A DNA stretch of 52,897 bases from Labilithrix sp. (lineage in GTDB: Bacteria; Myxococcota_A; Polyangia; Polyangiales; Polyangiaceae): assembly GCA_019637105.1 (NCBI GenBank), contig JAHBWF010000039.1, positions 1-52,897 of the forward strand, in the 5' to 3' direction. The notes beneath the pieces are model-generated. The model was not told the origin of the DNA. It saw only the letters and a list, made by a program, of their open reading frames with translations, and did not search any database. Numbering within the stretch: position 1 is the stretch's first letter; every line of letters begins with the position of its first letter. A program made the position numbers and the translations under genes. Positions 23,542 to 45,086 of the stretch are shown piece after piece.

Positions 23542-23545
23542 TCGT

Positions 23546-27302: not shown

Positions 27303-28520
27303 TCACTCCGCGTACATCTTGATGCCGGTCGCGGCGGCGAACGAGAGCCGGTGCGCCTCGTCCCACTCGGGGTGGCGCACCAGCACGTGCCCGTCCGACA
27401 GCAGCGTGTGCTTCCAGTTGCGCCGCAGCGTGCCGGGGCGGAGGAGCTTCTCCTCGACGACCCACTCTCCGGCCTCGCGCATCCACGCGCCGAGGCCCTC
27501 GATGCGGGTGATCTTGCCCTCGCCCCGCGCGCGCTTGAAGACGATGCCGACGTTGTACTTGCGCGGCGACTTCGCCTCGAACCTCCCGAAGCACGACACG
27601 CGCGCCCACTCGCGGAAGAGATCGATGTCGTTCGTGTAGTTCATCTGATCGACGATGTGCGCGCCGCCCGGACGGCAGCCGATCTCGCCGAACACGGCCT
27701 CGCCCTTCGGCGTGAGGTACCACTCCATGTGGGTGAAGCCGTCGCCCATCCCGAGCGCGCCGAGCACCTTGCGACCGAGCTCGATGCCGCCCTGGAGCTT
27801 CGCCTGCTGCATGTCCCGCACGGTGATGATGACCGGGCTCACCCACTCGAGCGTGCGCATCTCGAGCGGCTTGGGCAGGTACGCCGCGACGTTCTCGTAG
27901 GCGGGCACGCCGCCGACGCAGACCGTGTCGAACGTGAACTCCTCGCCGTCGACGTACTCCTCGCAGCTCGCCTCGGGGACGCCGCGCATCGCCTTGAGCA
28001 CCGTCTCGAGCTCGGCGTCGCTCGTCACCTTGTGGGTGTCGGCGCTGCCGGCCCCCGCGATCGGCTTCAGGATCAGCGGGTAGCCGATCTCCTCGGCGGC
28101 GGCGCGCGTCTCGGCCTCGGTCTTCACGCGGCGCGACTTCGGGACGCGGAGCCCGGCCGCGCGGACGCGCTCCTTCATGAGCTGCTTGTCGCGGAAGCCG
28201 GTGACGGCGTCGACCGACATCCCCGGCACGCCCCAGCGCTCGCGGAGGCGGGCGGCGAGGATGACGAGCGGCTCCCAGTTGGACAGCACGCGATCGATCG
28301 TCGTGCCGCGCAGCCAGGTCGAGACGCGCTCCATGACGTCGTTCTCGTCCATGATGCGCGGGACGCGGAGGTAGTCGTGGAGGTACGGCCGGACGCGCGC
28401 GGGCAGGGCCTCGAGCGGCGTGTCACCGACCCCGTACACCGTGGCGCCGACCTCGGCGAGGCCGCGGGTGTACTCGATCATCTCCGGCGGATAGGCGGGC
28501 GAAAGGAAGACGACTCGCAT
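27303..28520 (-). CDS. ATP-grasp ligase A (L-amino-acid-ligase-like)
   Basis: Encodes 405 residues. An N-terminal Rossmann-like domain (MRVVFLSPAYPPEMIEY) precedes an ATP-grasp fold: FRDKQLMKERVRAAGLRVP, GYPLILKPIAGAGSADTHKV (nucleotide Lys and Gly-rich loop), EEYVDGEEFTFDTVCVGG, GDGFTHMEWYLTPKG (metal-binding Glu) and FGEIGCRPGGAHI (second metal ligand and Arg). Family members join a carboxylate to an amine through an acyl-phosphate. It is a clear paralogue of the genes at 28657 and 31564, sharing RDKxxMK, THMEW and EI..RPxG motifs. It is divergent from ligase B across 136 bases. A TGGTAAACA element lies 21 bases before the ATG. Substrates are unknown. Confidence 0.9.
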   Translation of the reverse strand: MRVVFLSPAYPPEMIEYTRGLAEVGATVYGVGDTPLEALPARVRPYLHDYLRVPRIMDENDVMERVSTWLRGTTIDRVLSNWEPLVILAARLRERWGVPGMSVDAVTGFRDKQLMKERVRAAGLRVPKSRRVKTEAETRAAAEEIGYPLILKPIAGAGSADTHKVTSDAELETVLKAMRGVPEASCEEYVDGEEFTFDTVCVGGVPAYENVAAYLPKPLEMRTLEWVSPVIITVRDMQQAKLQGGIELGRKVLGALGMGDGFTHMEWYLTPKGEAVFGEIGCRPGGAHIVDQMNYTNDIDLFREWARVSCFGRFEAKSPRKYNVGIVFKRARGEGKITRIEGLGAWMREAGEWVVEEKLLRPGTLRRNWKHTLLSDGHVLVRHPEWDEAHRLSFAAATGIKMYAE

Positions 28521-28541
28521 CGGTGCGTCCTGGCGGTCGGG

Positions 28542-28550
28542 TGTTTACCA
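28542..28550 (-). promoter_or_regulatory. Candidate extended -10 element (TGGTAAACA) for ATP-grasp ligase A
   Basis: Copy of the recurring motif, here 21 bases before the ATG, in the divergent spacer shared with ligase B. Confidence 0.3.
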
Positions 28551-28656
28551 CACGGCACCCGTCCCCGACGGCCGAGTTCTTCGCCGGTCGTCCGGCGCCG
28601 CGGGCACGGGTCCGTTGACGCGCCCGCTGGCCTGAGGGCACGCTGGGCCGCCCTCC

Positions 28657-29877
28657 ATGCCCCGCAACGTCATCTTCGTAGCCCCGTTCCCCGTCGACAC
28701 CACCATGCGCTTCGTCCGGGCGGCGTCGAAGCTCGACGACGTGCGTCTGCTCGGCGTCTGCCACACGCCGCCGGAGGGAGAGGACGCCCGGCTCTACCAC
28801 GACGTCGTCCGGGTGACGAAGCCGCTCGATCTGGGGGACGTGCTCGACGGCGTCGAGGTGCTCCGCCGCCGCCACGGCCAGCCCTACCGGCTCATCGGCA
28901 TCCTCGAGCCGTTGATGGTGGAGCTCGCGGAGGCGCGCGCGCGCTTCGGCATCGACGGCACGCGGCCCGCGGTCGCCGACCTCTTCCGTGACAAGGCCCG
29001 GATGAAGGATGCGCTGCGCGCCGCGGGGCTGCCGGTGGCGCGTCACCGGCTCGTCAAGTCCGAGGCCGACGCCCGCGGCTTCGCCGAGGAGGTCGGCTTC
29101 CCGATGGTCCTCAAGCCGCCGGCGGGCATGGGCGCCAAGGCGACCTTCCGCGTGAGCTCTCTCGACGCGCTGCTCCGCGCGCTCCGGGGCATGCGCGTCG
29201 ACGCCGGGGCGCCGGTGCTGGCGGAGGAGATGCTCCGCGGCCGCGAGCACAGCTTCGAGACGATCACGATCGGCGGGAAGGCGAAGACGTGGTCGATCTC
29301 GGATTATCTGCCGAGCTGCCTCGAGGTCGTCGAGAACGCGTGGATCCAGTGGTCGAACGTCCTGCCCCGTGAGCTCGACGCGCCCGTCCACGACGCGGCC
29401 CGCGCGATGGGCTTCGCCGCGATCGAGGCGCTCGGGCTCGACAGCGGGATGACGCACATGGAGTGGTTCGAGAAGCCGGACGGCTCGCTCGCGATCGGCG
29501 AGATCGCGCAGCGCCCGCCCGGGGCGAACATCACCCGCATGACCGGCCTCGCGCACGACGTCGACCCCTACCGCGCCTGGGCGCGCGCCGTCGTCGACGG
29601 CGAGCTCGACGCTCCGTGGACGCGCAAGTACGCGGTGGGCTGCGCCTACCTGCGCGGGATGGGGCAGGGGCGGATCGTCCACGTGACCGGCGTCCACGAG
29701 ACGCACGAGGCCGTCGGCAAGTGGGTCGTGGAGGCGAAGCTCCCGACGCTCGGCGCGACGAAGGCCGACAGCTACGAGGGCGACGGCTACGTCATCGTTC
29801 GCCACGAGAGCACGGACGCGGTCCGCGCGATGATCAAGGAGATCATCGAGACGGTGAAGGTCCACTACGCCGAATGA
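28657..29877 (+). CDS. ATP-grasp ligase B (L-amino-acid-ligase-like)
   Basis: Encodes 406 residues and has the same architecture as ligase A: N-terminal MPRNVIFVAPFPVDTTMR, then FRDKARMKDALRAAGLPVAR, GFPMVLKPPAGMGAKATFRV, EEMLRGREHSFETITIGG, DSGMTHMEWFEKPDG and IGEIAQRPPGANI. The essential Lys, Glu and Arg positions of the ATP-grasp fold are in place, so it should be an active ATP-dependent carboxylate-amine ligase in the cytosol. The distinct loop residues (GMGAKA against GAGSAD in A and AAGASG in C) suggest a different substrate from its paralogues. It is divergent from A and convergent with glgA, so it is probably a single-gene transcript. Confidence 0.9.
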   Translation: MPRNVIFVAPFPVDTTMRFVRAASKLDDVRLLGVCHTPPEGEDARLYHDVVRVTKPLDLGDVLDGVEVLRRRHGQPYRLIGILEPLMVELAEARARFGIDGTRPAVADLFRDKARMKDALRAAGLPVARHRLVKSEADARGFAEEVGFPMVLKPPAGMGAKATFRVSSLDALLRALRGMRVDAGAPVLAEEMLRGREHSFETITIGGKAKTWSISDYLPSCLEVVENAWIQWSNVLPRELDAPVHDAARAMGFAAIEALGLDSGMTHMEWFEKPDGSLAIGEIAQRPPGANITRMTGLAHDVDPYRAWARAVVDGELDAPWTRKYAVGCAYLRGMGQGRIVHVTGVHETHEAVGKWVVEAKLPTLGATKADSYEGDGYVIVRHESTDAVRAMIKEIIETVKVHYAE

Positions 29878-29946
29878 CGCGGCGCCGGCGCGGCCTCCTG
29901 CGCGCCCCGCGTGGAGCCGGCCCGCGCGCGCCCCGCGCCGGAGCGC

Positions 29947-31422
29947 TCAGCGGCCCGGCGCGATCATCCGGTAGACCATCTCGTAGGCGTTCACCCGCTC
30001 GTCCCAGCCGAGGCGCGCGCGCATGCCGTTCCTCTGGAGCGCGCGCCAGCGCTCGCGGTCCTCGCCCTCGCCGGAGCCCCAGGTCGCGAGGGCGTGGGCG
30101 ACGCCGTAGCCGAGGCCGCTCTCGTCGAAGTGATCGAAGACGAAGCCGTTGCCGCTCCGCCGGCCGGCGTCGAACGGCGTGACGGTGTCGGCGAGGCCGC
30201 CGGTCCGGTGCACGATCGGCGGGGTGCCGTAGCGGAGGCTGTACATCTGGTTCAGCCCGCACGGCTCGTAGCGCGACGGCATGAGGAACATGTCCGACCC
30301 GGCCTCGATGAGGTGCGCGAGCGGCTCGCTGAAGCCGCGCTTGTAGGCGACCTGCTTCGGGAACTGGAAGGCGAGCGCCGAGAAGAACTTCTCGTACTGC
30401 GGCTCCCCCGTCCCGAGGACCACGAGCTGGACCTGCCGCTTGGCGAGGACGCGCGGGAGCACGCTCATGCAGAGGTCGAAGCCCTTCTGCCACGCGAGCC
30501 GCGAGACGACGCCCATGACCGGGACGCGCGGGTAGTAGCGGAGCCCGGCGCCCTCGAGCAGGGCCCGCTTGTTCACCTCCTTGCCCGCGAGGTCCTCCGC
30601 CGAGTACGGCTGCGGGATCCGCGCGTCGGTCTCGGGGCTCCACTCGCCCTCGTCGATGCCGTTGAGGATCCCGAAGAGGACCTCGCGGCGCTGGCGGAGG
30701 AACGCGTCGAGCCCGACCCCGTGCTCCGGGGTCTGCACCTCGCGCGCGTAGGTCGGGCTCACGGTGGTGATCGCGTTCGCGTAGAGGATGCCCGTGAGGA
30801 GGAAGTTGATCCGGCCCTCGCGCAGCTGGTCCTGGTGGAAATGATGCGCGGCGTCCGCGAGCCCCGCGTCGCCGAGGGCGTTCTTCCCGAAGGTGCCCTG
30901 GTGGCCGATGTTGTGGATCGTCAGGACCGTGCGGGTCCCCGCGAAGAGGCGGTCCCACGTGAACATCGTCCTGAGGAGGAGCGGGATGAGGCTCGTCTGC
31001 CAGTCGTTCGCGTGGACGATGTCCGGGCGGAACCCGAGGCGCTGGCAGACGACGAGCGAGGCCCACGAGAGGACCGCGAACCGGAGGTGCTCGTCGTGGT
31101 CCGACGTGTAGATCCCCGGCCGGTCGTAGAGGCCGGAGCACCGGACGAAGTAGACGGGGACCTTGGCGCCTCCGGGCACGCCCGGGAGATCGGCCGTGTG
31201 GACCGAGAAGACGATGCGCGTCCCGCCCAGGACGAGCACGGCCTCGCCGATGACCGTCTCGAAGGTCCGGTCCGGCGCCTTGACCCGCGCGTACATGGGC
31301 ATGACGATCCGCACGTCGTGCCCGCGCGCCGCGAGGGCGCGCGGCAGAGCCGCCGCTACGTCGCCGAGCCCCCCCGTCTTGGCGAACGGAGCCACCTCGG
31401 ATGAGACGAAGAGGACGTTCAC
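29947..31422 (-). CDS. glgA: Glycogen synthase (ADP-glucose type, GT5)
   Basis: Encodes 491 residues from a GTG at 31422, giving the canonical start VNVLFVSSEVAPFAKTGGLG with the KTGGL ADP-glucose motif. Further landmarks: FSVHTADLPGVPGGAKVPVY, IVHANDWQTSLIPLLLR, TIHNIGHQGTF, SRLAWQKGFDL, VVLGTGEPQYE and SRYEPCGLNQMYSLRYGTPP (the GT-B Glu region). It extends alpha-1,4-glucan from ADP-glucose. No other glycogen gene is in the window; it lies between two ATP-grasp genes and is divergent from ligase C. A TGCTAGGGT element lies 10 bases before the GTG. Confidence 0.96.
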   Translation of the reverse strand: MNVLFVSSEVAPFAKTGGLGDVAAALPRALAARGHDVRIVMPMYARVKAPDRTFETVIGEAVLVLGGTRIVFSVHTADLPGVPGGAKVPVYFVRCSGLYDRPGIYTSDHDEHLRFAVLSWASLVVCQRLGFRPDIVHANDWQTSLIPLLLRTMFTWDRLFAGTRTVLTIHNIGHQGTFGKNALGDAGLADAAHHFHQDQLREGRINFLLTGILYANAITTVSPTYAREVQTPEHGVGLDAFLRQRREVLFGILNGIDEGEWSPETDARIPQPYSAEDLAGKEVNKRALLEGAGLRYYPRVPVMGVVSRLAWQKGFDLCMSVLPRVLAKRQVQLVVLGTGEPQYEKFFSALAFQFPKQVAYKRGFSEPLAHLIEAGSDMFLMPSRYEPCGLNQMYSLRYGTPPIVHRTGGLADTVTPFDAGRRSGNGFVFDHFDESGLGYGVAHALATWGSGEGEDRERWRALQRNGMRARLGWDERVNAYEMVYRMIAPGR

Positions 31423-31432
31423 GAGGGCGCGC

Positions 31433-31441
31433 ACCCTAGCA
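31433..31441 (-). promoter_or_regulatory. Candidate extended -10 element (TGCTAGGGT) for glgA
   Basis: Fits TGnTAnnnT, 10 bases before the GTG. The divergent ligase C gene has a near-identical TGCTAGGTT followed by the same GCGCGCCC, so both promoters in this spacer share one design. Confidence 0.45.
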
Positions 31442-31524
31442 CCGGTCCGCGGCGAGCGGGGAGACGACGAGGCGGGCCGCGGACGACGAGGACGACCGCC
31501 GAGATGGAAACCGGCGAGGCGTCC

Positions 31525-31533
31525 TGCTAGGTT
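31525..31533 (+). promoter_or_regulatory. Candidate extended -10 element (TGCTAGGTT) for ATP-grasp ligase C
   Basis: Fits TGnTAnnnT, 30 bases before the GTG start. The element and the following bases match the glgA element on the other strand. Confidence 0.4.
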
Positions 31534-31563
31534 GCGCGCCCATTTCCACAAAGGCCGAGAGTC

Positions 31564-32790
31564 GTGGACGTCATCTTCGTCGAGCCGTCATTCCCCGCGA
31601 ACCAGCGCGAGTTCGCGCGCGCTCTTCACTCCGTCGGTGCCCGCGTCATCGGCATCGGCGAGCGGCCCAAGTCGTCCCTCGACGACGGCCTCCGCCACTG
31701 GCTGACCCACTACGAGGAGATCGGCAACGTCACCGACGAGGCCCAGCTCGAGAAGACGGTCCGCTGGCTGATGGCCCGGCCCGGCGTGAAGATCGAGCGG
31801 CTCGAGGCCGTGGTCGAGGCCCACGTCATGGCCGCCGCGCGGGTCCGCGAGCGCTGCGGGATCCCCGGCACGAGCGTCCGGACGGCGTTCCTCTGCCGCG
31901 ACAAGCCGGCCATGAAGGAGGCGCTCCGGGAGGCGGGCGTGCCCTGCGCGCAGTCGATCGGGAGCGCCGATCCGACCGAGATCAAGGCGTTCGCCGAGCA
32001 GGTCGGCTTCCCGCTCGTCGTGAAGCCGCGCGACGCCGCCGGCGCCTCGGGGACCTACCGGGCGAACGACCCCGGGGAGCTCCACGACGCGCTCGTCGCC
32101 TGCCACGTCGACAAGGGGCGGAGCGTCGCGGTCGAGGAGTTCATCGAGGGCCACGAGGGCTTCTACGACACCATCACCGTCGACGGTAAGGTCCTCCACG
32201 ACTTCGTCTCGCACTACTACCCGAACGTGCTCGAGGCGATGCGCACGCGCTGGATCTCGCCGCAGTTCATCGCGACCAACCGCGTCGACCAGCCGAGCTA
32301 CGACGAGATCAAGGCGATGGGCCAGAAGGTGATCTCCGCGCTCGGCGTCACGACGTCGGCGACCCACATGGAGTGGTTCTACGGCCCGAAGGGCCTGAAA
32401 TTCAGCGAGATCGGCTGCCGTCCGCCGGGCGTGCGCGCCTGGGACCTCTACGCGGCGTCGAACGAGTTCGACATCTACCGCGAGTGGGCGATGGCGATCG
32501 TACACGGCAAGGCGAGCCAGAGGCTCACGCGCCGCTTCGCCGCCGGCATCATCGCGCTCCGGCCCGACCGCGACGGGCACATCTCGCACTACGAGGGCAA
32601 GGACGAGATCTTCCGGCGCTTCGACGGGATGATCGTCGACAGCCATTTCCCGCCGCCGGGCACGCCCACGCAGGGCGTCGAGGCGGGCTACATGGCGAAC
32701 GCGTGGCTCCGCCTGAAGCACTATGACTACGACACGCTCCGATCGATGCTCGACACCGTCGGCCAGACGCTGAAGGTGCGCGCGTCATGA
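31564..32790 (+). CDS. ATP-grasp ligase C (L-amino-acid-ligase-like)
   Basis: Encodes 408 residues from a GTG at 31564. It is the third paralogue: MDVIFVEPSFPANQREFARA, CRDKPAMKEALREAGVPCAQ, GFPLVVKPRDAAGASGTYRA, EEFIEGHEGFYDTITVDG, TSATHMEWFYGPKG and FSEIGCRPPGVRAW. The ATP-grasp Lys, Glu and Arg positions are conserved. It heads a plus-strand run: an S51-like protein, an esterase and a fourth ATP-grasp protein follow with small gaps or overlaps. This suggests a shared pathway in which an amide is formed and then trimmed or released. A second ATG (32787) overlaps its stop but opens only a 24-residue out-of-frame reading. Confidence 0.9.
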   Translation: MDVIFVEPSFPANQREFARALHSVGARVIGIGERPKSSLDDGLRHWLTHYEEIGNVTDEAQLEKTVRWLMARPGVKIERLEAVVEAHVMAAARVRERCGIPGTSVRTAFLCRDKPAMKEALREAGVPCAQSIGSADPTEIKAFAEQVGFPLVVKPRDAAGASGTYRANDPGELHDALVACHVDKGRSVAVEEFIEGHEGFYDTITVDGKVLHDFVSHYYPNVLEAMRTRWISPQFIATNRVDQPSYDEIKAMGQKVISALGVTTSATHMEWFYGPKGLKFSEIGCRPPGVRAWDLYAASNEFDIYREWAMAIVHGKASQRLTRRFAAGIIALRPDRDGHISHYEGKDEIFRRFDGMIVDSHFPPPGTPTQGVEAGYMANAWLRLKHYDYDTLRSMLDTVGQTLKVRAS

Positions 32791-32857
32791 GCGCCTCGTC
32801 CGAAGCCCGGCCGTGGGGGCGGCCGACGTCTCGTCGCCCTACCCGGAGCCTCCGCAC

Positions 32858-33823
32858 GTGATCTCCGGCGATACGCGCGCCGTCGTCCTCCTCGGCGCGC
32901 AACGGTTCGACCCCTCGCTCGCCGACGCGGTCGCGGAGCTCGGCGTCGAGGGGAAGATCGCCGCGATCACCGCCGGCTGGCAGGAGCGCGAGGAAGAAGA
33001 CGACGACCTCCAGGAGCACCTCGGCGGCCGCACGGTGAACCTCCGCCTCCACGCGCGCGCGGAGGAGGTCTTCAAGAACGACCCCGACCTCCAGGCCGCG
33101 CACCGCGAGCGCCAGGCGATCCTCCGCCACCGCCAGGACTTCTACCGGATCCGCCTCGAGCACGCGCTCGACGCGCAGCACGTCATCGCCAACCGCGCCG
33201 CGCCGAAGGACATCCTCGACGACGAGGCGCGCGCCTCGATCCAGGCGATCCGCGACATCGACCGGAGCCACCTCGAGCGGTGCGTGCGCGACCACAAGGC
33301 GTTCGAGGAGCGCTGGCGCCCGCTCGAGCGCCCCGCGGTCGCCGACCAGATCGGCGAGATCGCCGAGATCGTGAAGGACTGCGAGGCGATCGCGATCGCG
33401 GGCGGCCACGTCGCGTCGCTGCTCAACCGCCTCAGGATGTTCGACATCGCCAAGCTCGCGGCGGGCAAGGTCGTGTTCGCCTGGTGCGGCGGCGCGATGG
33501 CGGTCAGCGAGCGGGTCGTCCTGTTCCACCACTCGCCGCCGCAGGGGCCCGGCGCCGCCGAGGTCCTCGACGAGGGGCTCGCGCTCGTCGGCGACGTCGT
33601 CTGCCTCCCGCAGCCCGAGTTCCGCCTCCGCCTGGACGATCGCGAGCGCATCCGCGTCATGGCGCGCCGCTTCGCGCCGGCGACCTGCCTCGCGCTGCCG
33701 GCGCGCTCGCGCGTGACCTGGCTGAAGCGGGGCCCCAAGGACCCGTCCGGCGTGCTCGCGCTGCGCGACGACGGCATGCACACGCGCTTCGAGGTCTCGG
33801 GCGGCGGAGGCATCGGCTCATGA
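32858..33823 (+). CDS. Cyanophycinase/peptidase S51-like protein with a Cys nucleophile
   Basis: Encodes 321 residues from a GTG at 32858 with GGAG 9 bases upstream; a GTG at 32813 would add 15 residues. It has a class-I-glutaminase-like core: TRAVVLLGAQRFDP, KIAAITAGWQERE, AIAIAGGHVASLLNRL and FAWCGGAMAVSERVVLF. In peptidase S51 enzymes the nucleophile motif is GTSAGA; here the aligned AWCGGA puts Cys210 in place of Ser. A long helical insert (about 55-150) is extra. Family members cut acidic or beta-linked peptides (cyanophycinase, peptidase E). A hydrolase or amidotransferase acting on the product of the neighbouring ligases is inferred. Its stop overlaps the esterase start (ATGA). Confidence 0.65.
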   Translation: MISGDTRAVVLLGAQRFDPSLADAVAELGVEGKIAAITAGWQEREEEDDDLQEHLGGRTVNLRLHARAEEVFKNDPDLQAAHRERQAILRHRQDFYRIRLEHALDAQHVIANRAAPKDILDDEARASIQAIRDIDRSHLERCVRDHKAFEERWRPLERPAVADQIGEIAEIVKDCEAIAIAGGHVASLLNRLRMFDIAKLAAGKVVFAWCGGAMAVSERVVLFHHSPPQGPGAAEVLDEGLALVGDVVCLPQPEFRLRLDDRERIRVMARRFAPATCLALPARSRVTWLKRGPKDPSGVLALRDDGMHTRFEVSGGGGIGS

Positions 33824-35001
33824 AGCGCTCGATGAGACCGAGCTCGGCGTCGATGCGCGCCGCGCCCAAGTCGGCGATCCAGCAGCTCATCGACTCCCGG
33901 CCGGACGCCGCCAAGGTCGACCGCTTCCTCGAGGGCCGCTCGATCCCCATCGTCGAGGGCCCGGCGGTCACGTTCGTCTGGCGCGGCGAGGCGAACGGCG
34001 TCAGCCTCCGCCACTGGATCTTCGGCCTCGAGTCGGGCAGCGCGCTCACGCGGATCCCCAACACCGACCTCTGGTATTTGACGCTCGACATCCCGCACGG
34101 CTCGCGCGTCGAGTACAAGTTCGAGATCCACCGCTCCGACCGGAGCGAGTGGATCGAGGACCCGCGCAACCCGAACCGCGCGCGCGACCCGTTCGGCGCG
34201 AACTCCGTCCTCCAGGGCGAGGGCTACGCGGTCCCGGACTGGGTGCGGCCCGACCCGACGTCGCGCCCGGGCCTGCTGGAGCCGTTCGGCTTCCACAGCA
34301 AGGCGTTCGGCGGGATGCGAAGCGGCCACATCTACCTGCCGGCGCGCTTCCGCAAGACGCGCCTCTACCCGCTCGTGGTCGTCCACGACGGCCGCGACTA
34401 CCTGAACTTCGCCGTGATGAAGACGGTGCTCGACAACCTGATCGAGCGCCTCGAGATCCCGGACATGATCGTCGCGTTCACCGACTCGCCCGACCGCATC
34501 CGCGAGTACCCGAACGACGAGCGTCACGCGCGCTTCCTCACGGAGGAGCTGCTCGCGGACCTCACGCACCGCCTGCCGATCATCGACCGCCCCCAGGCGC
34601 GCTGCCTGATGGGCGCGAGCTTCGGCGCCGTCGCGGCCTTCTCGACGGCGTACCGCTACCCGGGCGTGTGGGGGCGCTTGCTCCTCCAGTCCGGGTCCTT
34701 CGCCTTCACCGACATCGGCAAGACGAACCGCCGCGGCCCGCTCTTCGACAAGGTGGTCGAGTTCGTGAACCAGGTCCGCGCCAACCCGGTGCCGGTGAGC
34801 GAGCGCGTCTTCATGAGCTGCGGCGTCTACGAGTCGCTCATCTACGAGAACCGGTCGCTCGTCCCGCTGCTCGACTCCACGGGGATGCAGGTGAAGTTCG
34901 TCGAGGCGCGCGACGGTCACAACTGGGAAAACTGGCGGGATCGCCTGCGTGAAGGGCTGTCGTGGCTCTTCCCGGGCCCGCTGATGTTCATCTACGAGTA
35001 G
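33820..35001 (+). CDS. Esterase of the Fes/PF00756 type with an N-terminal E-set domain
   Basis: Encodes 393 residues from the ATG at 33820, which overlaps the previous stop by 4 bases. Residues 50-135 form a CBM48/E-set-like beta sandwich (VTFVWRGEANGVSLRHWI, WYLTLDIPHGSRVEYKFEIH). The alpha/beta-hydrolase domain follows: YPLVVVHDGRDYLN, MGASFGAVAAF (Ser267 in GxSxG) and DGHNWENWRD (His367). This is the layout of enterochelin esterase. No siderophore genes are adjacent, so the substrate is more likely an ester, thioester or amide linked to the locus product. There is no signal peptide; it should be cytosolic. Confidence 0.88.
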   Translation: MKRSMRPSSASMRAAPKSAIQQLIDSRPDAAKVDRFLEGRSIPIVEGPAVTFVWRGEANGVSLRHWIFGLESGSALTRIPNTDLWYLTLDIPHGSRVEYKFEIHRSDRSEWIEDPRNPNRARDPFGANSVLQGEGYAVPDWVRPDPTSRPGLLEPFGFHSKAFGGMRSGHIYLPARFRKTRLYPLVVVHDGRDYLNFAVMKTVLDNLIERLEIPDMIVAFTDSPDRIREYPNDERHARFLTEELLADLTHRLPIIDRPQARCLMGASFGAVAAFSTAYRYPGVWGRLLLQSGSFAFTDIGKTNRRGPLFDKVVEFVNQVRANPVPVSERVFMSCGVYESLIYENRSLVPLLDSTGMQVKFVEARDGHNWENWRDRLREGLSWLFPGPLMFIYE

Positions 35002-35063
35002 CGCGACGCGCTCGCGACGAGTACGAGCAACGCGACGAGACCGAGGAGTCGGGGAAGAGGAAC

Positions 35064-36314: not shown

Positions 36315-36328
36315 GCGGGCCGCTCCGG

Positions 36329-37744: not shown

Positions 37745-37915
37745 TCCGTCGGGCCTCCCGCGCTCCGCGGTGCAGCCGGCGTGCCGTGACGTTGAAAAAT
37801 TGCACCGTGAGAGGAGTCGTCCGCCGTCGGGAGGCGGCGCGCCGGCGACGAAGAGGCGCCTCGCGCGCCGCGGCCCCTTGCTGCAGGCGACGCCGCGCCC
37901 GGCCCGGCGCCGTCG

Positions 37916-37924
37916 TGCTAAACC
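37916..37924 (+). promoter_or_regulatory. Candidate extended -10 element (TGCTAAACC) for the peroxiredoxin gene
   Basis: TGCTAA ends 7-11 bases before the ATG at 37932, in line with the recurring near-leaderless arrangement. Confidence 0.35.
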
Positions 37925-37931
37925 CGCCGCC

Positions 37932-38390
37932 ATGATCGACGTCGGACAGAAGCTCCCCGCGTTCAGCCTCGAGAACCAGGACGGAGAGACCCGGACGAGC
38001 GCGAGCTACGCCGGCAAGTGGCTCGTGCTCTACGTCTACCCGAAGGACGACACCCCCGGGTGCACGATCCAGGGCAAGTCGTTCACCGCGACGAAGGCCG
38101 ACTACGACGCCGCGGGCGCGGTCGTCGTCGGTCTCAGCGCGGACGACGCGAAGTCCCACAAGGACTTCTGCAACAAGTTCGCGTTCACGATCGAGCTGCT
38201 CGCCGATCCGGAGACGAAGCTCCTCGGCGCGCTCGGCGTCGGCCAGTCCGAGTACAAAGGGACGCTCTACTGGGACCGCACGACGTTCCTCGTCGATCCG
38301 ACCGGCGTCGTCCGCAAGGTCTACACGAAGGTCGATCCGAACGGCCACGAGAAGACCGTCCTCGACGACATCGCGAAGCTCAAGGGCTGA
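37932..38390 (+). CDS. Peroxiredoxin, BCP/PrxQ type
   Basis: Encodes 152 residues, the usual BCP/PrxQ length. The peroxidatic cysteine is Cys44 in KDDTPGCTIQGKSF. The resolving Cys found five residues later in E. coli BCP is absent (Lys49). Instead Cys80 in HKDFCNKFAF is 36 residues on, the place of the resolving Cys in the alpha3-type PrxQ subgroup, so it should still be a 2-Cys enzyme. It reduces hydroperoxides using thioredoxin in the cytosol. It stands alone between a SUMF1-like gene (divergent) and the kinase gene (convergent). Confidence 0.95.
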   Translation: MIDVGQKLPAFSLENQDGETRTSASYAGKWLVLYVYPKDDTPGCTIQGKSFTATKADYDAAGAVVVGLSADDAKSHKDFCNKFAFTIELLADPETKLLGALGVGQSEYKGTLYWDRTTFLVDPTGVVRKVYTKVDPNGHEKTVLDDIAKLKG

Positions 38391-38414
38391 CATCCCCGCG
38401 CGGCCTCGTCGTCA

Positions 38415-38476
38415 ACGGCGGCCGCGCGTCGTCGACGTCGGTTGCCGCGTCGTCGGGACGGCGGCCGCGCGTCGTC
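38415..38476. repeat. 19-bp exact direct repeat between convergent genes
   Basis: The sequence acggcggccgcgcgtcgtc occurs at 38415-38433 and 38458-38476, 43 bases apart. The second copy runs into the kinase gene's stop codon (38475-38477). Seen directly. Confidence 0.85.
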
Positions 38477-40619
38477 AGCGATGGCTGAGGAGCAAACAGC
38501 CGCCGATCGACAGCGTGATCACGACGAGCGCGGCGAGGCCGAGCTCGGCGATCCGGACGGCTTGCGGCTTCTCCGCCTCGGGCAACGGAGGGCGCGGCGG
38601 CTCCTGGTGGGGGAGCCAGCGCGCCGGGTCCGACGCGGGCTCGTACGCGGCGCCCGGCATGCGCGCGCGCGCGGACGGCGGCGGCAGCGCGACGGAGCCC
38701 GACGGCGCGCCGCGCGGTCCGGCGGCGGGGGGCAGCGCGTCCGAGCTCCCCGGATGAACGGGCGGCATCCGCGCCGGGCCCGCGGGCTCGATCCGGCGCG
38801 GCGGAGGGAGGGGCAGCGGACCCGACCCCGCGAGCTGCGCCGGCGGGAAGAGCGCGGCGTGCGCCGGATCGTGCGGGCGCTCGTGGCGGGGACGATCGAG
38901 GCGCATCGTGCGCTTCGCTTCTTCCTCGACGGGCGGCGGCTCGGCGATCAGCGTCCCGGTGCGCGGGACCGGACCGGTGCGCGGGACGGGAGGTCCGCCC
39001 AGCGCCTGCGTCGTGTCGACGCGCGCGGGCGGCGCGTGCGCGACCGCCCGGGGGAGCGACAGGATCGCGGGCGTCTCGGTCGTGGCGACCGTCGGCCCTT
39101 CCATGTCGCCCTCGGTGAACTCCGCGGTCCAGAGATCGTCCGGATCGCGCGGGGTGGGGAGCTCGGCGGAGTCGGGGCCCCCGTCGTGCGGGGCGCGGAA
39201 CCCCGCGGGCGGCGCGCCGCGCGGCGGCCTCACCACCGTCCGCTCGGCGGTCGACGCCGGCGGCGAGTCGATCACCGCGGTCGGTCCGGAGGACGGCATC
39301 GGCAGCTCGGTCGTCGGCTCCGACGACGGGACGAGGGACGTCGCGCTCGAGTTGACCACCGTCCGCCCCGACAGCGGCGCGGGCTCGGGCGGCGGCGCCG
39401 GGCGCGACGCGCGCGGCGTCGCGGGGAGCTTCACGCCGGAGCCTGGCGTCGCGGCGGGCGGCGTCGCGGGGAGCTTCACGCCGGCGCGCGACGACTTCGC
39501 GCCGAGCGCCGGCGGCGGGGCCGACGGCAGCGGGATGCGCTGCATCTTCTGCATCGGCGGCGGCTTGAACGAGAGCGACGGGGCGGACGCGGCCGGCGGC
39601 TTCACCGAGAGCGCCTTCGGATCGCTCGGCGCCGCGTCGTCTCCGGGCGGCGCGGTCACGGCGCTCGTCCCCTCACGCGGCGTCGCCGCCGGCGGCGGGG
39701 GCAGCGCGCTCGGGCGCGCGAGCGGCGTCTGCGCGGGCGTCGACGCGTAGCTCTGCGGCACGGCCTTCCGGAGCGCCGCCTGCATCTCGCGTACGCCCGG
39801 CCAACGACGCGGCTTCTCGAGCGCGAGCGCCTTGTCGACGACCGCGATCACCTCCCGCGGGATCTCCCGGCCTGCGCGCGTCGCCGCGAGCGACCGCGCC
39901 TGCCGGCTCGCCGCGGCCATCAAGAGGTTGCTCAGCGTGTCCTGGACGTGCACCGCCTCGCCCGAGAGGAGCGTGAACATCGTCGCGCCCACGGCGTAGA
40001 CGTCGGTGTGCGCGTCGATCTGCCCGCGCTTGCCGAGCGCCTGCTCGGGCGACATGTACTCGGGCGTCCCGAGCAGGAGCCCCGTCGCCGTCGGCTCGGC
40101 CTGGACCGCGGCCTCCTTGATGTGCGCGATGCCGAAGTCGAGGACCTTCACGGTGCCGTCGGCGAGGACGAAGATGTTCTCCGGCTTGATGTCGCGGTGG
40201 ATGATGCCCCGCTCGTGCGCGGCCGCGAGGACGTCGAGCACCTGATCGCAGACGTGCGTGACCTCCGCGACCGGGAGGCGACCGCCGCTGCGTTCGCGCT
40301 TGTCCTCGAGCAGCTCCCCGTGCTCGAGCAGCTCCATCACGATGTACGCCGAGCCGTCGGCGGTGACGTCGTCGTCGAGGATCCGGACGACGCCGGGGTG
40401 GCCGACCTTGTTCGCGGCGTAGCCCTCGCGGAGGAAGCGGCTCCGGACGTCCGCGTTCCGCGCGTACTCCGGGTGCATGATCTTGATGGCGGCGACCTGA
40501 CCGCGCCGGTGCGTCGCGCGGAAGACGGTCGCGACCCCGCCGCGCGCGATCTTCGCCTCGATCCGCCACTTGTCTTGCAGGACCGTCCCGATCCAGCCCG
40601 ACGGTCTGTGGTCCACCAT
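38475..40619 (-). CDS. Hanks-type Ser/Thr protein kinase with long disordered tail and C-terminal TM helix
   Basis: Encodes 714 residues from the ATG at 40619. The kinase domain spans about 10-265: KIARGGVATVFRATHR (Gly-rich loop, one Gly replaced), AAIKIMHPE (catalytic Lys), IIHRDIKPENIFV, KVLDFGIAHIKEA (DFG) and GTPEYMSPEQ, all intact. A Pro/Ala/Ser-rich region of about 400 residues follows, with internal repeats (VKLPATPPAA/VKLPATPRAS; VPRTGPVPRTGTL). A single transmembrane helix at the extreme C-terminus (LGLAALVVITLSIGGCLLL) anchors it. This architecture is typical of myxobacterial kinases. Its targets are unknown; divergence from the esterase-ligase operon makes control of that operon possible but unproven. 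A TGTAGTCT -10-like element lies 10 bases before the ATG. Confidence 0.93.
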   Translation of the reverse strand: MVDHRPSGWIGTVLQDKWRIEAKIARGGVATVFRATHRRGQVAAIKIMHPEYARNADVRSRFLREGYAANKVGHPGVVRILDDDVTADGSAYIVMELLEHGELLEDKRERSGGRLPVAEVTHVCDQVLDVLAAAHERGIIHRDIKPENIFVLADGTVKVLDFGIAHIKEAAVQAEPTATGLLLGTPEYMSPEQALGKRGQIDAHTDVYAVGATMFTLLSGEAVHVQDTLSNLLMAAASRQARSLAATRAGREIPREVIAVVDKALALEKPRRWPGVREMQAALRKAVPQSYASTPAQTPLARPSALPPPPAATPREGTSAVTAPPGDDAAPSDPKALSVKPPAASAPSLSFKPPPMQKMQRIPLPSAPPPALGAKSSRAGVKLPATPPAATPGSGVKLPATPRASRPAPPPEPAPLSGRTVVNSSATSLVPSSEPTTELPMPSSGPTAVIDSPPASTAERTVVRPPRGAPPAGFRAPHDGGPDSAELPTPRDPDDLWTAEFTEGDMEGPTVATTETPAILSLPRAVAHAPPARVDTTQALGGPPVPRTGPVPRTGTLIAEPPPVEEEAKRTMRLDRPRHERPHDPAHAALFPPAQLAGSGPLPLPPPRRIEPAGPARMPPVHPGSSDALPPAAGPRGAPSGSVALPPPSARARMPGAAYEPASDPARWLPHQEPPRPPLPEAEKPQAVRIAELGLAALVVITLSIGGCLLLSHR

Positions 40620-41027
40620 GCCCGCGAGAAGACTACACGAGGCCGAGGTCGTCTCGCATCGACCGCGCGCCTCGCGCGCCGCGCGCCGATCGCGACCGTC
40701 CCGATCGCGCGTGAGCCGGCGCGGACGCGCCGCGCGCCGGATCGTCGATCGCGACGCGCGCCGACGCCGCGACCGGATCGGTCGCGCGCGGACCGGCCGC
40801 GGAGCCCCGCCCGTTCGGAGGCCGCGGCGCGTCCCCGCGGCGACACCGGATCGCAACTACGACCTGCCCCGATGTAAGCAAGGCGGCGGCGCGGAGTCCT
40901 CAAATACGCGGGGTTTCAGGGTTTACTTGCGACCGGACGCGCGCGCCGCTACGACGTGGGCGAAGCTCTTCGGTTTGGAGCTGTGACTGGGGTTGGAGGG
41001 TCCGTCCGCGCAGGGCGGGACAAAAAC
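40620..41027. other. Divergent spacer between the kinase gene and the esterase operon
   Basis: These 408 bases hold no convincing gene. A TGTAGTCT -10-like element serves the kinase side (40630-40637, minus). A less GC-rich patch near 40895-40930 (around CTCAAATACGCGGGGTTTCA) is a plausible promoter region for the plus-strand operon. The rest is Arg-coding-like CGCG-rich sequence. Confidence 0.4.
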
Positions 41028-41786
41028 ATGTTCGAGAAGTCTTCCTGGTACTCGTCTCGTTTGCAGTGCGACACGACGCTCGCGCGCTGGGGGTTCTCCG
41101 GTCAACCCGTGCTCGTCTTCCCGACCGCCGGCAGCGACGCGGAGGAGATCGAGCGCTTCAAGATGATCCACGTGCTCGAGCCGTTGCTCGCCGCCGGGCG
41201 CGTCAAGATCTACTCGTGCGACAGCGTCGCGGGGCGCGTGTTCTTCGACAAGCAGCACTCGGTCGAGCACCGCATGTACGTGATGAACCAGTTCCACCAG
41301 TACGTGAAGCACGAGGTCGTCCCCGCGATCCGCACGGACTGCAAGACGCCCGACATCCCGATCTGGACGACGGGCGCGTCGATCGGCGCGTTCCACGCCG
41401 TGGCGGTGACGTGCCGGTTCCCCGATCTCTTCCACCGCGCGCTCGGGATGAGCGGGAGCTACGAGCTGCTCCGGTTCATCGATCACCCGCAGCCGACGGA
41501 CTACTACCGGGTGTCGTCGCCGCTCCACTTCGTGCCCACGCTCTCGGGCCTGCACCTCGACGTGCTGCGCACGCGCTACATCCACCTCGCGTCGGGCGAG
41601 GGCAAGTGGGAGAACATCGGCGAGAGCTTCCGCATGGGCAAGGTGCTCGGCGACAAGGGGATCCCGAACTGGGTCGAGTCCTGGGGCAACGTCGATCACG
41701 ACTGGGTCACCTGGCGCGCGAAGCTCCCCAAGTACCTCGACGACTGGACCTCGCCGAAGCAGGCGGAAGCGGCGGCGCAGGTCTGA
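41028..41786 (+). CDS. Esterase-like alpha/beta hydrolase (COG4947 type)
   Basis: Encodes 252 residues from the ATG at 41028; a GTG 72 bases upstream would add a Gly-rich stretch unlike the family. The protein begins MFEKSSWYSSRL and has PVLVFPTAGSDAEEIERF, then TTGASIGAFHAVAV (Ser118 in GxSxG), an ARTRYIHLASGEG-like strand and VDHDWVTWRAKLP (likely catalytic His). It lacks a signal peptide. It is the first gene of a tight three-gene operon with a GCS2-CBS ligase (1 base gap) and an AspA-like amidohydrolase. Such small esterases are found beside ATP-grasp and GCS2 genes in other bacteria; a role in releasing or transferring the ligated product is inferred. Confidence 0.85.
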   Translation: MFEKSSWYSSRLQCDTTLARWGFSGQPVLVFPTAGSDAEEIERFKMIHVLEPLLAAGRVKIYSCDSVAGRVFFDKQHSVEHRMYVMNQFHQYVKHEVVPAIRTDCKTPDIPIWTTGASIGAFHAVAVTCRFPDLFHRALGMSGSYELLRFIDHPQPTDYYRVSSPLHFVPTLSGLHLDVLRTRYIHLASGEGKWENIGESFRMGKVLGDKGIPNWVESWGNVDHDWVTWRAKLPKYLDDWTSPKQAEAAAQV

Positions 41787-41787
41787 C

Positions 41788-43926
41788 ATGGAAGCCGGTC
41801 CTCGGAACGACAAGACGTCCGCCGGCGAGCTCGAAGGCCCCGAACGCGCGCGCTACGTGCGCGCGCTCCTCAGCGATCTCCGCGCGCTCGAGCGGATGCT
41901 CGCGGAGGGCATGTTCGAGGAGGGCGTCTCGACCGTCGGCGCCGAGCAGGAGATGTTCCTCGTCGACCGCGCGTACAACGCGTCGCCGACGGTGCTCGAG
42001 CTGATCGACAAGATCGCCGACCCGCACCTCACGACCGAGCTCGGGCTCTTCAACCTCGAGATGAACGCCGACCCGGAGCCGCTCGACGGCGGCGGGCTCG
42101 CGCGGCTCGAGGCGCAGCTCACGTCGCTCTACGCGCGCGTGAAGGCGGCCGCCGCCGAGCTGGACGTCCAGCCGGTGCTCACGGGCATCCTGCCGACGCT
42201 CGCGCGGACGGACCTCTCGCTCGACAACATGGTGCCGAACCCGCGCTACCTCACGCTGAACCGCGTGATGAGCGCGGCCAAGGGCGACGGCTACGACATC
42301 TCGATCAAGGGCCTCGACGAGCTCGTCGCCAAGCACGACTCGCTCATGTTCGAGGCCTGCAACGCGAGCTTCCAGGTCCACCTGCAGTCGCTCGATCCGC
42401 GGCGCTTCGGCCACGACTACGACATCGCCCAGCTCGTCCTCGCGCCGACGCTCGCGATCGGGACCAACTCTCCGACGCTCCTCGGCAAGCGACTCTGGGC
42501 GGAGACGCGCATCGCCCTCTTCGAGCAGTCGTGCGACATCCGCACGCGCACGCTCCACGCGCGGCAGGACGCGCCGCGCGTCTCGTTCGGCAAGGGGTGG
42601 GCGACGCGCGGGGGCGCGCTCGGCATCTTCAAGGAGAACGTCACGCGCTTCCGCCCGCTCGTCGGGATGAGCGTCGACGAGGACTCGCTGAGGATCCTCG
42701 ACGAGGGCGGCGTCCCCGACCTCCGCGCGCTCCGCCTCCACAGCGGCACGATCTACCGCTGGAACCGCGCCTGCTACGGCGTCTCCGCCAGCGGCAAGCC
42801 CCACCTCCGCATCGAGCTGCGCGCCCTCCCGTCGGGCCCGTCGATCCTCGACGAGGTGGCGAACGCCGCGTTCTGGATCGGCCTCATGCGCGAGCTCTCG
42901 CGCACGATCGAAGACCTCCCGTCGCGGATGGACTTCGACCAGGCGCAGGCGAACTTCTACAACGCCGCGCGCGAGGGCCTGGCCGCGCGCTTCATCTGGC
43001 TCGACGGCGAGGAGGTGATCGCGCAGCCGTTCGTCCTCGATCGCCTCTTGCCGATCGCCGAGGCCGGGCTGTCGCGCGCGGGCGTCGATCCGGACGACGT
43101 CAAGCGGTACCTCGGCGTCGTCGACAAGCGCGTCCGCACCCTCCACACGGGATCGCGCTGGGCGCTCCGCTCGCTCGCGGACATGAAGCCGAAGGGCACG
43201 CCCGGCGAGCACCTCGCCGCGCTCGTCGCCGCGACGATCGCGCGCCAGGAGACGGCGCGTCCGGTCGCCGAGTGGGAGCGCGCGCGCCTCGACGAGATGC
43301 CGGCGCGCCGGACGGGCTGGGCGAAGGTCTCGCAGTACATGCAGACCGACCTCTTGATCGTCCACCCGAACGATCCGGTCGAGCTCGCCGCCGACATCAT
43401 GAGCTGGGAGCGCATCCGGCATTTGCCGGTGGAGGACGAGAACGGCAAGCTGGTGGGGCTCGTCACGTCGCGCGCGGTCCTCCGGTACTACGCGAACCTG
43501 CCGGGCGCCCGCTCGGAGAGCTCCTCGATGCTCCCGCGCAGCGATAGCTCAACCATGCTCCCGAGGTCGGACAGCTCCACGTCGCTCCTCGCCGATCTCA
43601 CCCGGCTCGGGAGCGCGCCCCCGCCGAATGTGACGGTCGGCGAGGTCATGAAACGGGATCTGGTGACGGTCTCGCCCGAGACGTCCACCCTCGCTGCGAT
43701 CTCCTTGATGCGCAAGCACCGCATTGGATGCTTGCCTGTGGTCAAGGATGGACGCATCGTTGCGATGGTCATGGAGGAAGACTTCATGGGCATCGCCGCC
43801 GATCTCCTCGAGGAGAAGCTCGGCGCCCTCGAGTCGACCGAGGAGCCCTCCGTCAGGAGCGCGACGCGGGAGAAGGCGACGGAGCGGGCGGCGGAAGGAC
43901 CGGACGCGAGGAGGCACTCTCGATGA
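41788..43926 (+). CDS. Glutamate-cysteine-ligase-like (GCS2) enzyme fused to two CBS domains
   Basis: Encodes 712 residues. The GCS2-type domain (about 30-480) shows VGAEQEMFLVDRAYN, ELGLFNLEMNADP, NACNASFQVHLQ-like FEACNASFQVHLQSL and FGKGWATRGGALGIF; it should form a gamma-glutamyl or similar amide with ATP. CBS domain 1 (about 513-570; YMQTDLLIVHPNDPVELA) and CBS domain 2 (about 614-670; EVMKRDLVTVSPETSTLAA) follow, separated by a Ser-rich linker (about 573-608) that repeats SSxMLPRSD. CBS pairs usually bind adenine nucleotides, so activity may answer to energy charge or SAM. It starts 1 base after the esterase stop and overlaps the next gene by 4 bases (ATGA). Confidence 0.9.
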   Translation: MEAGPRNDKTSAGELEGPERARYVRALLSDLRALERMLAEGMFEEGVSTVGAEQEMFLVDRAYNASPTVLELIDKIADPHLTTELGLFNLEMNADPEPLDGGGLARLEAQLTSLYARVKAAAAELDVQPVLTGILPTLARTDLSLDNMVPNPRYLTLNRVMSAAKGDGYDISIKGLDELVAKHDSLMFEACNASFQVHLQSLDPRRFGHDYDIAQLVLAPTLAIGTNSPTLLGKRLWAETRIALFEQSCDIRTRTLHARQDAPRVSFGKGWATRGGALGIFKENVTRFRPLVGMSVDEDSLRILDEGGVPDLRALRLHSGTIYRWNRACYGVSASGKPHLRIELRALPSGPSILDEVANAAFWIGLMRELSRTIEDLPSRMDFDQAQANFYNAAREGLAARFIWLDGEEVIAQPFVLDRLLPIAEAGLSRAGVDPDDVKRYLGVVDKRVRTLHTGSRWALRSLADMKPKGTPGEHLAALVAATIARQETARPVAEWERARLDEMPARRTGWAKVSQYMQTDLLIVHPNDPVELAADIMSWERIRHLPVEDENGKLVGLVTSRAVLRYYANLPGARSESSSMLPRSDSSTMLPRSDSSTSLLADLTRLGSAPPPNVTVGEVMKRDLVTVSPETSTLAAISLMRKHRIGCLPVVKDGRIVAMVMEEDFMGIAADLLEEKLGALESTEEPSVRSATREKATERAAEGPDARRHSR

Positions 43927-45086
43927 GCGACGTTCACGATTTGCCGGAGGGGCGGGAGATAGGGCGCGTCGTCGGCGACGCGGCCGGCCCCACGCTGATC
44001 GTCGTCGCCGGGATCCACGGCAACGAGCGCGCCGGCGTCGGCGCGGCGCGGCGCGTCCTCGCCACGCTCGCGCGCCGGCAGGGCAGGGTGATGGGGGAGC
44101 TCGTCGCCCTCGCCGGCAACCTCGGCGCGATGCGCCTCGGCGTGCGCTACCGCGAGCGCGACATGAACCGCGTCTGGACGAAGGACCGCGTCGCGGACCT
44201 CGAGTCCCGCGCCCGCTCGGGCGGCGCGCTCGACGCCGAGGACCGCGAGCAGCTCGAGCTGCTCGACGCCGTTCGGGCGGCGATCGCGCGCGCGCGCGGC
44301 CCCGTGTACCTCGTCGATCTCCACACGACGAGCGCGCACGGCCTGCCGTTCATCCTGTTCGGCGACACGCTGAAGCAGCGCAAGTTCGCCAGCGCGATCC
44401 CGCTGCCGCTCGTGATCGGCCTCGAGGAGCAGGTCGACGGCGTGCTCACCGCGTTCTTCACCACGCAGGGCTGCGTGACGTTCGGCGTCGAGGGCGGTCA
44501 GCACGACGATCCGGGCTCCGTCGACAACCTCGAGGCGGTGGTCCTCCTCGGCGCCGAGTCGGCGGGCCTCTTCGGCTCCGGTCTCCTCACCGAGACGGGC
44601 GCGGCGCACGCGCTCCTCGAGCGTCGCCGCGGCGATCTCCCGCGCGTGATGGAGGTCGTCTCGCGCCACGCCATCACGGCGGCCGACGCGTTCGTGATGG
44701 AGCCCGGCTTCATGAACCTCGCGCGCGCGCGCGCCGGGCAGCTCCTCGCGAAGAGCCGCGCCGGAGAGGTGCGCGCGCCGAAGGACGGCATGGTGATCCT
44801 CCCGCTCTACCAGGGGCAGGGCTCCGACGGCTTCTTCTGGGGCCGCGAGGTCGGCGCGGCGCGGATGCACCTGTCGGAGGCGCTCCGCCACATGAAGGTC
44901 GACCGCCTGCTGCACCTGCTCCCCGGCGTCGCGCGCGATCCGGCGAGGCCGTCGAAGCTCGTCGTCGGCGAGCGCGCCACGCGGCTCTACCGCCTCGACA
45001 TGTTCCACTTGCTCGGCTACCGGCGCGTCCGCAAGGAGGCCGAGCGCCTCACGCTCGAGCGCCAGCTCGAGCACGCGGCGGAGTGA
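43923..45086 (+). CDS. Aspartoacylase/succinylglutamate-desuccinylase-like amidohydrolase
   Basis: Encodes 387 residues from the ATG at 43923, overlapping the ligase stop. It is an M14-type zinc enzyme: VVAGIHGNERAGVG (zinc ligands His and Glu, about residues 30-38), ELVALAGNLGAMRLGVRYRE, DMNRVWTKDRV and YLVDLHTTSAHG (third zinc ligand His), with VTFGVEGGQHDDP as the likely catalytic Glu region. Family members hydrolyse N-acyl amino acids such as N-acetylaspartate or N-succinylglutamate. Placed after a GCS2 ligase and an esterase, it may remove an acyl or aminoacyl group from the locus product. It ends the operon; a repeat lies just beyond. Confidence 0.9.
   Translation: MSDVHDLPEGREIGRVVGDAAGPTLIVVAGIHGNERAGVGAARRVLATLARRQGRVMGELVALAGNLGAMRLGVRYRERDMNRVWTKDRVADLESRARSGGALDAEDREQLELLDAVRAAIARARGPVYLVDLHTTSAHGLPFILFGDTLKQRKFASAIPLPLVIGLEEQVDGVLTAFFTTQGCVTFGVEGGQHDDPGSVDNLEAVVLLGAESAGLFGSGLLTETGAAHALLERRRGDLPRVMEVVSRHAITAADAFVMEPGFMNLARARAGQLLAKSRAGEVRAPKDGMVILPLYQGQGSDGFFWGREVGAARMHLSEALRHMKVDRLLHLLPGVARDPARPSKLVVGERATRLYRLDMFHLLGYRRVRKEAERLTLERQLEHAAE

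Follow-up and report, generated by a model that had tools for sequence, protein, structure and literature searches.

What might a bacterium build with five carboxylate-amine ligases, several hydrolases and a glycogen synthase encoded side by side? The question is raised by a locus at positions 27303-45086 of a 52,897-nucleotide contig of Labilithrix sp., the whole of which is called the window here; the genome amounts to 334 contigs, 8.45 Mb in total. Family searches on the called genes give the order ligase A, ligase B, glgA, ligase C, an S51-like protein, esterase est1, ligase D, three genes of the FGE-like, PrxQ-like and kinase types, esterase est2, a GCS2-CBS ligase and an AspA-like acylase. 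Nine of these genes (the ATP-grasp ligases A-D, GCS2-CBS, the S51-like protein, the two esterases and AspA) had been picked out by an earlier reading of the DNA, the original prediction, and their types and positions are as it gave them. Our tentative answer is that the module may couple ADP-glucose/alpha-glucan synthesis to ATP-dependent formation of amide (or ester) bonds, the product, made and turned over by the module, being a conjugate of amino acids or peptides with an alpha-glucan derived from ADP-glucose. The gamma-glutamyl-type compound of the original prediction is possible; the link with glycogen suggests a sugar component, which that prediction left out of account.

The first indication that the genes form a unit comes from their distribution. 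D, S51, est1 and est2 have strong orthologues in one identical set of 32 genomes among 144 sampled from the class, with none strong in the others, and C has a strong orthologue in 31 genomes, all among the 32 with D. Random coincidence of two such genome sets would be expected at about 1 in 1e32, shared ancestry being ignored. Order is kept as well: the S51 gene is followed by est1 on the same strand within 500 bp in all 32 genomes, est1 by D in 29 and D by est2 in 28. The proposal that this is one locus of amide-forming ligases and hydrolases thus passed the test of co-occurrence across relatives, and the counts of co-occurrence and order confirm that the locus is more than chance.

The cluster extends well beyond the class. 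A scan of 84,980 species genomes with a D profile confirmed 457 stretches; the best 80 of these, many of them on short contigs, are referred to as the named loci, and they include Acidobacteriota, Planctomycetota, Gammaproteobacteria and one Eisenbacteria genome. Of the genomes sampled, 246 from Planctomycetota and 247 from Acidobacteriota, 40 and 13 respectively contain D (E<=1e-40, weak relatives counted). Counted over the 80 named loci, the most frequent companion of D is est1 (76 loci), followed by S51 (73), est2 (63), C (60), GCS2 (45), glgA (43), A and B (26 each), AspA (22) and an N-formylglutamate amidohydrolase-like gene, FGase (13). Two planctomycete loci, L157 and L165, hold ten genes (C, S51, est1, D, est2, glgA, glgC, B, A and GCS2) within about 13 kb, and L168 has A, S51, est1, D, est2, glgC, GCS2 and AspA. 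Clustering of the open reading frames (ORFs) of at least 80 aa in the 80 loci revealed no additional family common to many of them, families in at least four loci being considered. It is well supported that the cluster, whole or in part, is an ancient module common to five phyla. Since up to ten genes are kept across phyla, with D 63-66% identical between the window and the non-myxobacterial loci among the best 80 of 457, the module must do something specific.

In the window this order is interrupted. The locus is one of the four exceptions to the D-est2 adjacency, and D and est2 adjoin in the relatives L060 and L068. The series C-S51-est1-D-est2-GCS2-AspA is one ancestral arrangement that a lineage-specific insertion has split here. 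The two tightly coupled subsets described originally (31564-36314 and 41028-45086) are indeed tightly coupled, and are thus the halves of that one arrangement. The inserted genes look like bystanders. FGE and Prx are each found in 3 of the 80 named loci; PrxQ is confined among them to the three closest relatives (L055-L057), in one of which, L056, FGE is unmatched. The kinase, recognised by its motifs, belongs to a large family, and as a query it matches 14 of the 80 loci and also 3 of 20 control regions. Of the named relatives, two Labilithrix metagenome-assembled genomes are nearest (D identity 96% and 94%). Of the genes at first thought merely interleaved, PrxQ and the kinase keep that status, but glgA does not, as it belongs to a cluster-specific clade.

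The clustered GlgA scores 526 bits against the TIGR02095 model (cut-off 328) and has the KTGGL and EPCGL motifs, which have a catalytic role, placing it in GT5. It lies below the NCBI GlgA equivalog cut-offs (best 503 of 616), so its function may differ, and glycogen synthesis in vivo is a prediction; a match to the BshA model (1.5e-8) is far below that model's own cut-off. In a tree of GlgA sequences from 12 genomes searched, 15 cluster-type sequences from four phyla are set apart from 11 others with support of 99/99, two of the rows (G175 and L109) being the same gene and the gammaproteobacterial genome having two cluster-type copies, one of which was placed in a cluster locus (L116). Within that sample the cluster-type proteins are 47-57% identical to the window's and the others 29-44%, and 7 of the 12 genomes carry another, more distant GlgA besides. 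Because the cluster glgA forms a separate clade, it can be taken to belong to the system. It adjoins C in 40 places among the named loci, in 26 of them lying upstream on the same strand within 600 bp. As a separate observation, the FGase-like gene stands directly upstream of glgA in the 13 named loci that have it (PF05013 in L029, 16768-17730).

Other glycogen genes accompany glgA. Outside Myxococcota, glgC exceeds its NCBIfam equivalog cut-off in 6 of 8 loci tested (L116, L120, L123, L129, L132 and L163) and falls just below it in L165 and L174; malQ exceeds its own in both loci tested (L112 and L126). A glgB fragment at the end of L111 and GlgX-like genes in L110 and L128 are all below cut-off. 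By tblastn, 51 of the 80 named loci carry some glycogen gene, as do 13 of 20 planctomycete loci. When only loci of at least 19 kb are counted, the figures are 26/35 for named, 10/15 for planctomycete, 6/11 for class and 0/4 for Acidobacteriota loci, and 0/20 for control regions. These controls were drawn from cluster-bearing contigs, and the glgA queries, taken from clusters, were identical for test and control; the enrichment in long named loci over controls has a Fisher p of 2e-8. No glycogen gene was detected by tblastn in the 12 loci of distant D/est2 relatives.

The ligases define the other side of the proposed chemistry. A, B and C match ATP-grasp families in Pfam. The nearest solved structures to the C profile are L-amino acid ligases, namely 4wd3, which we take to be RizA (E 2.3e-21), and BacD (3vmm; 1.5e-13). 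RizA and BacD are dipeptide-forming ligases. A and B, which are paralogues of C, match the BacD model at 2.6e-12 and 3.5e-7, both below cut-off, with PurK models outscoring BacD for B, and no match shown for A-C reaches a curated NCBIfam cut-off. A-C thus match characterised L-amino acid ligases in sequence, and are assigned to the dipeptide-ligase type because C aligns to 4wd3 and BacD. Each of A, B and C is a single clade in a 56-sequence tree (support 100/99, 100/99 and 100/100 respectively). Clade C contains Myxococcota with Acidobacteriota, Planctomycetota, Gammaproteobacteria and Eisenbacteria; clades A and B contain Myxococcota with Planctomycetota, Gammaproteobacteria and Eisenbacteria. 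As the tree labels were taken from best matches, the informative part is the spread of phyla within each clade. A and B adjoin, in the arrangement A<B>, in 17 places among the named loci. The same genome also holds, outside the cluster, an extra copy of A (74% identical to A) and a B- or C-like ATP-grasp gene (L193, 8653-9867, and contig C283, 40683-41879).

D, the most conserved member of the cluster, is by profile comparison a divergent ATP-grasp protein. A Pfam search at E<=1 returned nothing for it, but its profile aligns with that of C over the ATP-grasp core (hhalign 94.9%, E 4.7e-8), which places it by homology in the superfamily. The weak PDB matches shown are to ATP-grasp enzymes (biotin carboxylases and D-Ala-D-Ala ligases, best E 6e-4), and Pfam weakly recognises ATP-grasp in the distant relative from L037. 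The AlphaFold model is confident (pLDDT 86, pTM 0.88), with a helical C-terminal third. Distant D relatives (28-31%) also occur in L036, L037, L040 and L042, near a subtilase and a protein that is amidotransferase-like by eye, the L036 copy of which gave nothing in Pfam. A distant est2 adjoins D in L036 and L037, and L036 has in addition a circularly permuted ATP-grasp gene, below cut-off. This is a different ligase-esterase neighbourhood.

The fifth ligase is seen more clearly in its orthologues. Pfam recognises CBS (3e-28) and not GCS2 in the window protein itself, but PF04107 is matched by 23 of the 25 members of its alignment A8 at E<=1 (best 5.4e-11), and two planctomycete orthologues, each with two CBS stretches, exceed the PF04107 cut-off. 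The A8 core profile found nothing in the PDB at E<=10. In the class, GCS2 matches 46 of 144 genomes, that is 30 of the 32 cluster genomes (one, G146, at 35% identity) and, counted by eye, 16 others; in several genomes it is on another contig or far from the cluster. AspA is an AstE-type acylase by its PF24827 match and its HxxE...H metal motif, HGNE being kept in 31/31 copies and DLH in 27/31. On another contig of the same genome (C304; L192, 1-2557) a second GCS2 ligase, with no CBS in Pfam, follows an AspA-like gene, so that the GCS2-AspA pair exists apart from the cluster too.

Both esterases belong to the same fold family. Est1 matches PF00756 (2.2e-16) and PF11806, Enterochelin_N (1.6e-6), with a weak CBM_20 match (0.009) below cut-off; it resembles Fes (2b20, E 3e-17) and CE1-CBM48 esterases, and the Ser of its GASFG motif is kept in 102/102 copies, so that both the family match and the catalytic Ser place it with the enterochelin esterase/CE1 enzymes. 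Est2 matches 5vol (E 6e-5) and PF00756 (8.8e-7), and its motif pattern is found in 68 of 83 copies.

The S51-like protein is probably not a conventional S51 peptidase. Its Pfam S51 match (E 0.05, 13.7 bits) falls short of the cut-off of 23.9, and the best PDB match of its profile is PdxT (E 0.039). The confident AlphaFold model (pLDDT 89) has two long helices (91-126 and 132-168) and the arrangement of a nucleophile elbow, with strand 220-224, Cys225 and helix 226-230. Among the 97 copies, which include some genomes twice, that position is variable (58 Ser, 18 Cys, 7 Gly, 5 Ala, 5 Thr and 4 unmatched), so the catalytic Ser of S51 is not conserved. Ala or Gly occurs there in L019, L020, L100, L105, L098, L027, L093 and others, although several of these clusters look complete. 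A catalytic nucleophile is not expected to vary so. Given this variation, the protein may act as a partner in binding or regulation, or may use other residues; the idea of a Cys-variant S51 peptidase as a family trait fails on the same grounds.

These parts can be assembled into a tentative pathway. GlgA, supplied by GlgC where the two are clustered, would build an oligoglucoside or an alpha-1,4-glucan. Four ligases, namely the GCS2-CBS enzyme and A, B and C of RizA/BacD type, would convert carboxylates to acyl phosphates and link amino acids to one another, giving a short peptide or gamma-glutamyl unit, and D may make the joint that commits this unit to the final acceptor. Est1, with its CE1 fold and its Enterochelin_N/CBM48-like N-terminal domain, and est2 could move or remove acyl groups at sugar hydroxyls; AspA, with the FGase-like hydrolase in some relatives, would trim N-acyl or amide bonds; and the CBS pair may sense adenylates. 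The steps and their order, like the glucan or glucoside carrying amino acids to which they would lead, are what we infer from the enzyme classes. In a bolder and doubtful version the product would be a nitrogen-bearing glycogen, an unrecognised reserve or surface material in which amide or ester bonds attach amino acids or short peptides to an alpha-glucan. A dedicated GlgA and five ligases would make it and glucan-docking esterases would remodel it, in Myxococcota, Planctomycetota and Gammaproteobacteria and, with fewer genes, in Eisenbacteria and Acidobacteriota.

Several observations weigh against a glucan conjugate. The substrates of the ligases are ones that we infer, D is without a family model, the Enterochelin_N domain of est1 need not bind glucan, and GCS2, given the 16 class genomes that have it without the cluster, is only loosely tied to the core. 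Nor is the glycogen link universal. No glycogen gene was found by tblastn in the eight sampled Acidobacteriota loci (4 of the 6 named loci from that phylum do have one), the weaker planctomycete loci L184-L190 have one in 1/7, and 9 of the 35 long named loci are without any. Among the class loci L015-L035, a cluster-type glgA is nearby in 12/21 and missing in 9/21, including L032-L034 (G158, G132 and G069). The tightest trio, S51-est1-D, may therefore not need a glucan. On this last point stands the alternative that the ligase/esterase module alone makes a peptide-type compound or nitrogen store, with glycogen genes adjoining it through shared regulation in growth arrest or nitrogen limitation: the sampled Acidobacteriota keep S51-est1-D with no glycogen genes nearby, and the class loci lacking glgA fit as well. 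Yet co-regulation does not require a separate glgA lineage kept across phyla, nor a second, more distant GlgA in 7 of 12 genomes. The persistence of that lineage, in several genomes next to a further GlgA, makes free storage with co-regulation alone the less likely account, and we consider it rather unlikely.

A small glucosylated peptide fits nearly as well as the glucan conjugate. Such a free molecule would be a short peptide or a gamma-glutamyl compound that receives one or a few glucose units from ADP-glucose and acts as an osmolyte, low-molecular-weight thiol or signal; it is possible, if the less favoured of the two. It would suit the nearness of C to the dipeptide-forming RizA and BacD and the gamma-glutamyl bonds that GCS2 enzymes often make, and GT-B enzymes related to GlgA do glycosylate small acceptors, though the BshA match is so far below its cut-off. 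It sits less well with the ADP-glucose glycogen-synthase signature of the clustered GlgA and with the polymer-handling malQ, glgB-like and GlgX-like genes of some cluster loci. A likely product is thus a polymer of sugar, or another compound based on sugar, that carries amino acids. The ligases might instead add amino acids or peptides to a protein, for example a glycogen-associated one, in the manner of RimK or tubulin ligases. The ATP-grasp and GCS2 folds do include RimK and PafA, but ORF clustering revealed no further family common to many of the 80 loci, and C is closer to free amino-acid ligases than to RimK; protein tagging is accordingly improbable. Least credible of all is that housekeeping genes came together here by chance, or that the locus is a mobile island or serves in defence. 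The FGE, PrxQ and kinase genes interspersed in this lineage speak for such an origin, but for the core genes the conserved gene order refutes chance, as do the co-occurrence counts, across phyla. None of 10 proteins matched PADLOC at E<=0.001, so that an anti-phage defence island is rejected, and a plasmid search with D gave no match, so that a plasmid origin is rejected too.

Features of the locus, with window positions and the chief evidence for each
Feature	Position	Strand	Evidence
ATP-grasp ligase A, L-amino acid ligase-like	27303..28520	-	Pfam ATP-grasp models; clade A 100/99
ATP-grasp ligase B, divergent partner of A	28657..29877	+	Pfam PF02222; clade B 100/99
glgA, GT5 ADP-glucose-type glycogen synthase, cluster-specific clade	29947..31422	-	TIGR02095 526 bits; clade 99/99
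ATP-grasp ligase C, L-amino acid ligase-like	31564..32790	+	4wd3 E 2.3e-21
S51-like protein, Cys225 in nucleophile-elbow arrangement, long helical insert (~residues 91-168)	32813..33823	+	Pfam S51 E 0.05; AlphaFold model
est1, enterochelin-esterase/CE1-like hydrolase, N-terminal Enterochelin_N	33853..35001	+	PF00756, PF11806
D, highly conserved, divergent ATP-grasp protein, helical C-terminal extension	35064..36314	+	hhalign to C profile; AlphaFold model
Lineage-specific insertion: FGE-like (-), PrxQ-like (+), protein kinase (-)	36329..40586	mixed	Between D and est2
est2, small CE1-like alpha/beta hydrolase	41028..41786	+	PF00756 8.8e-7
GCS2 carboxylate-amine ligase fused to CBS pair	41788..43926	+	PF04107 in orthologues; CBS 3e-28
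AspA/AstE-like metal-dependent acylase, HGNE and DLHT metal motifs	43923..45086	+	PF24827 1.5e-18

Two of the gene starts deserve comment. The start of glgA near 31422 was placed by homology, the ORF being open to 31551, and the correct frame of est1 starts near 33853, where the mechanical ORF list is misleading. The tight spacing noted at the outset is real, with a 1-base gap between est2 and GCS2-CBS (41786/41788) and an ATGA overlap between GCS2-CBS and AspA (43923-43926). Elsewhere in the window, a dehydrogenase E1-type gene (PF00676) is followed by a tandem second gene, perhaps as an E1 pair (22489-24610), and positions 47050-47877 encode a Haem-oxygenase-2/TENA-like protein.

How does the cluster compare with known systems? 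Amidoligase neighbourhoods that combine several ATP-grasp ligases, GCS2, alpha/beta hydrolases and aspartoacylase were reportedly described by Iyer et al. in 2009. The enzyme classes are the same as in the Labilithrix cluster. With respect to single enzymes, the alignment of C with RizA and BacD covers most of C and takes in the Glu region close to the C-terminal part of the ATP-grasp core; unlike those systems, the cluster keeps three paralogues, a fourth divergent ligase and a GCS2 ligase. Est1 shares with Fes and the CE1-CBM48 feruloyl esterases the fold family, the conserved Ser and the Enterochelin_N domain, but siderophore or plant-polysaccharide genes were not recognised by eye in 13 loci, no dedicated search having been made. 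The cyanophycin system consists of the CphA ligase (ATP-grasp plus a Mur-ligase domain) and the S51 cyanophycinase. An ATP-grasp ligase beside an S51-like protein, and the theme of a storage polymer, recall it; the cluster differs in its glycogen genes and in the varying nucleophile of its S51-like protein, and membership in cyanophycin biosynthesis is rejected, Pfam finding no Mur-ligase match in A-D.

Likeness to GlgCAB lies in a GlgA with its catalytic motifs and in the neighbouring GlgC, MalQ, GlgB-like and GlgX-like genes, the difference being that the cluster GlgA is a clade of its own. Ligases and esterases are not known as members of textbook glycogen operons, nor is any amidoligase neighbourhood known to include a glycogen synthase of its own together with further alpha-glucan genes. 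In 300,000 of the 445,374 characters of a 2024 review of prokaryotic alpha-glucan enzymes, a term search found neither 'esterase' nor 'gene cluster', and 'ligase' once, as O-antigen ligase (PMC11046441). The literature open to searching, which leaves most subscription journals outside, showed nothing recognised as describing the cluster or its glycogen link, terms for ATP-grasp with glycogen synthase or glgA and for Planctomycet among them. Each enzyme class is known, while the combination matches no system known to us. If the link to glucan is true, it joins the themes of carbon storage (glycogen) and nitrogen storage (amino-acid polymers) in one pathway, and offers a defined set of enzymes for testing.

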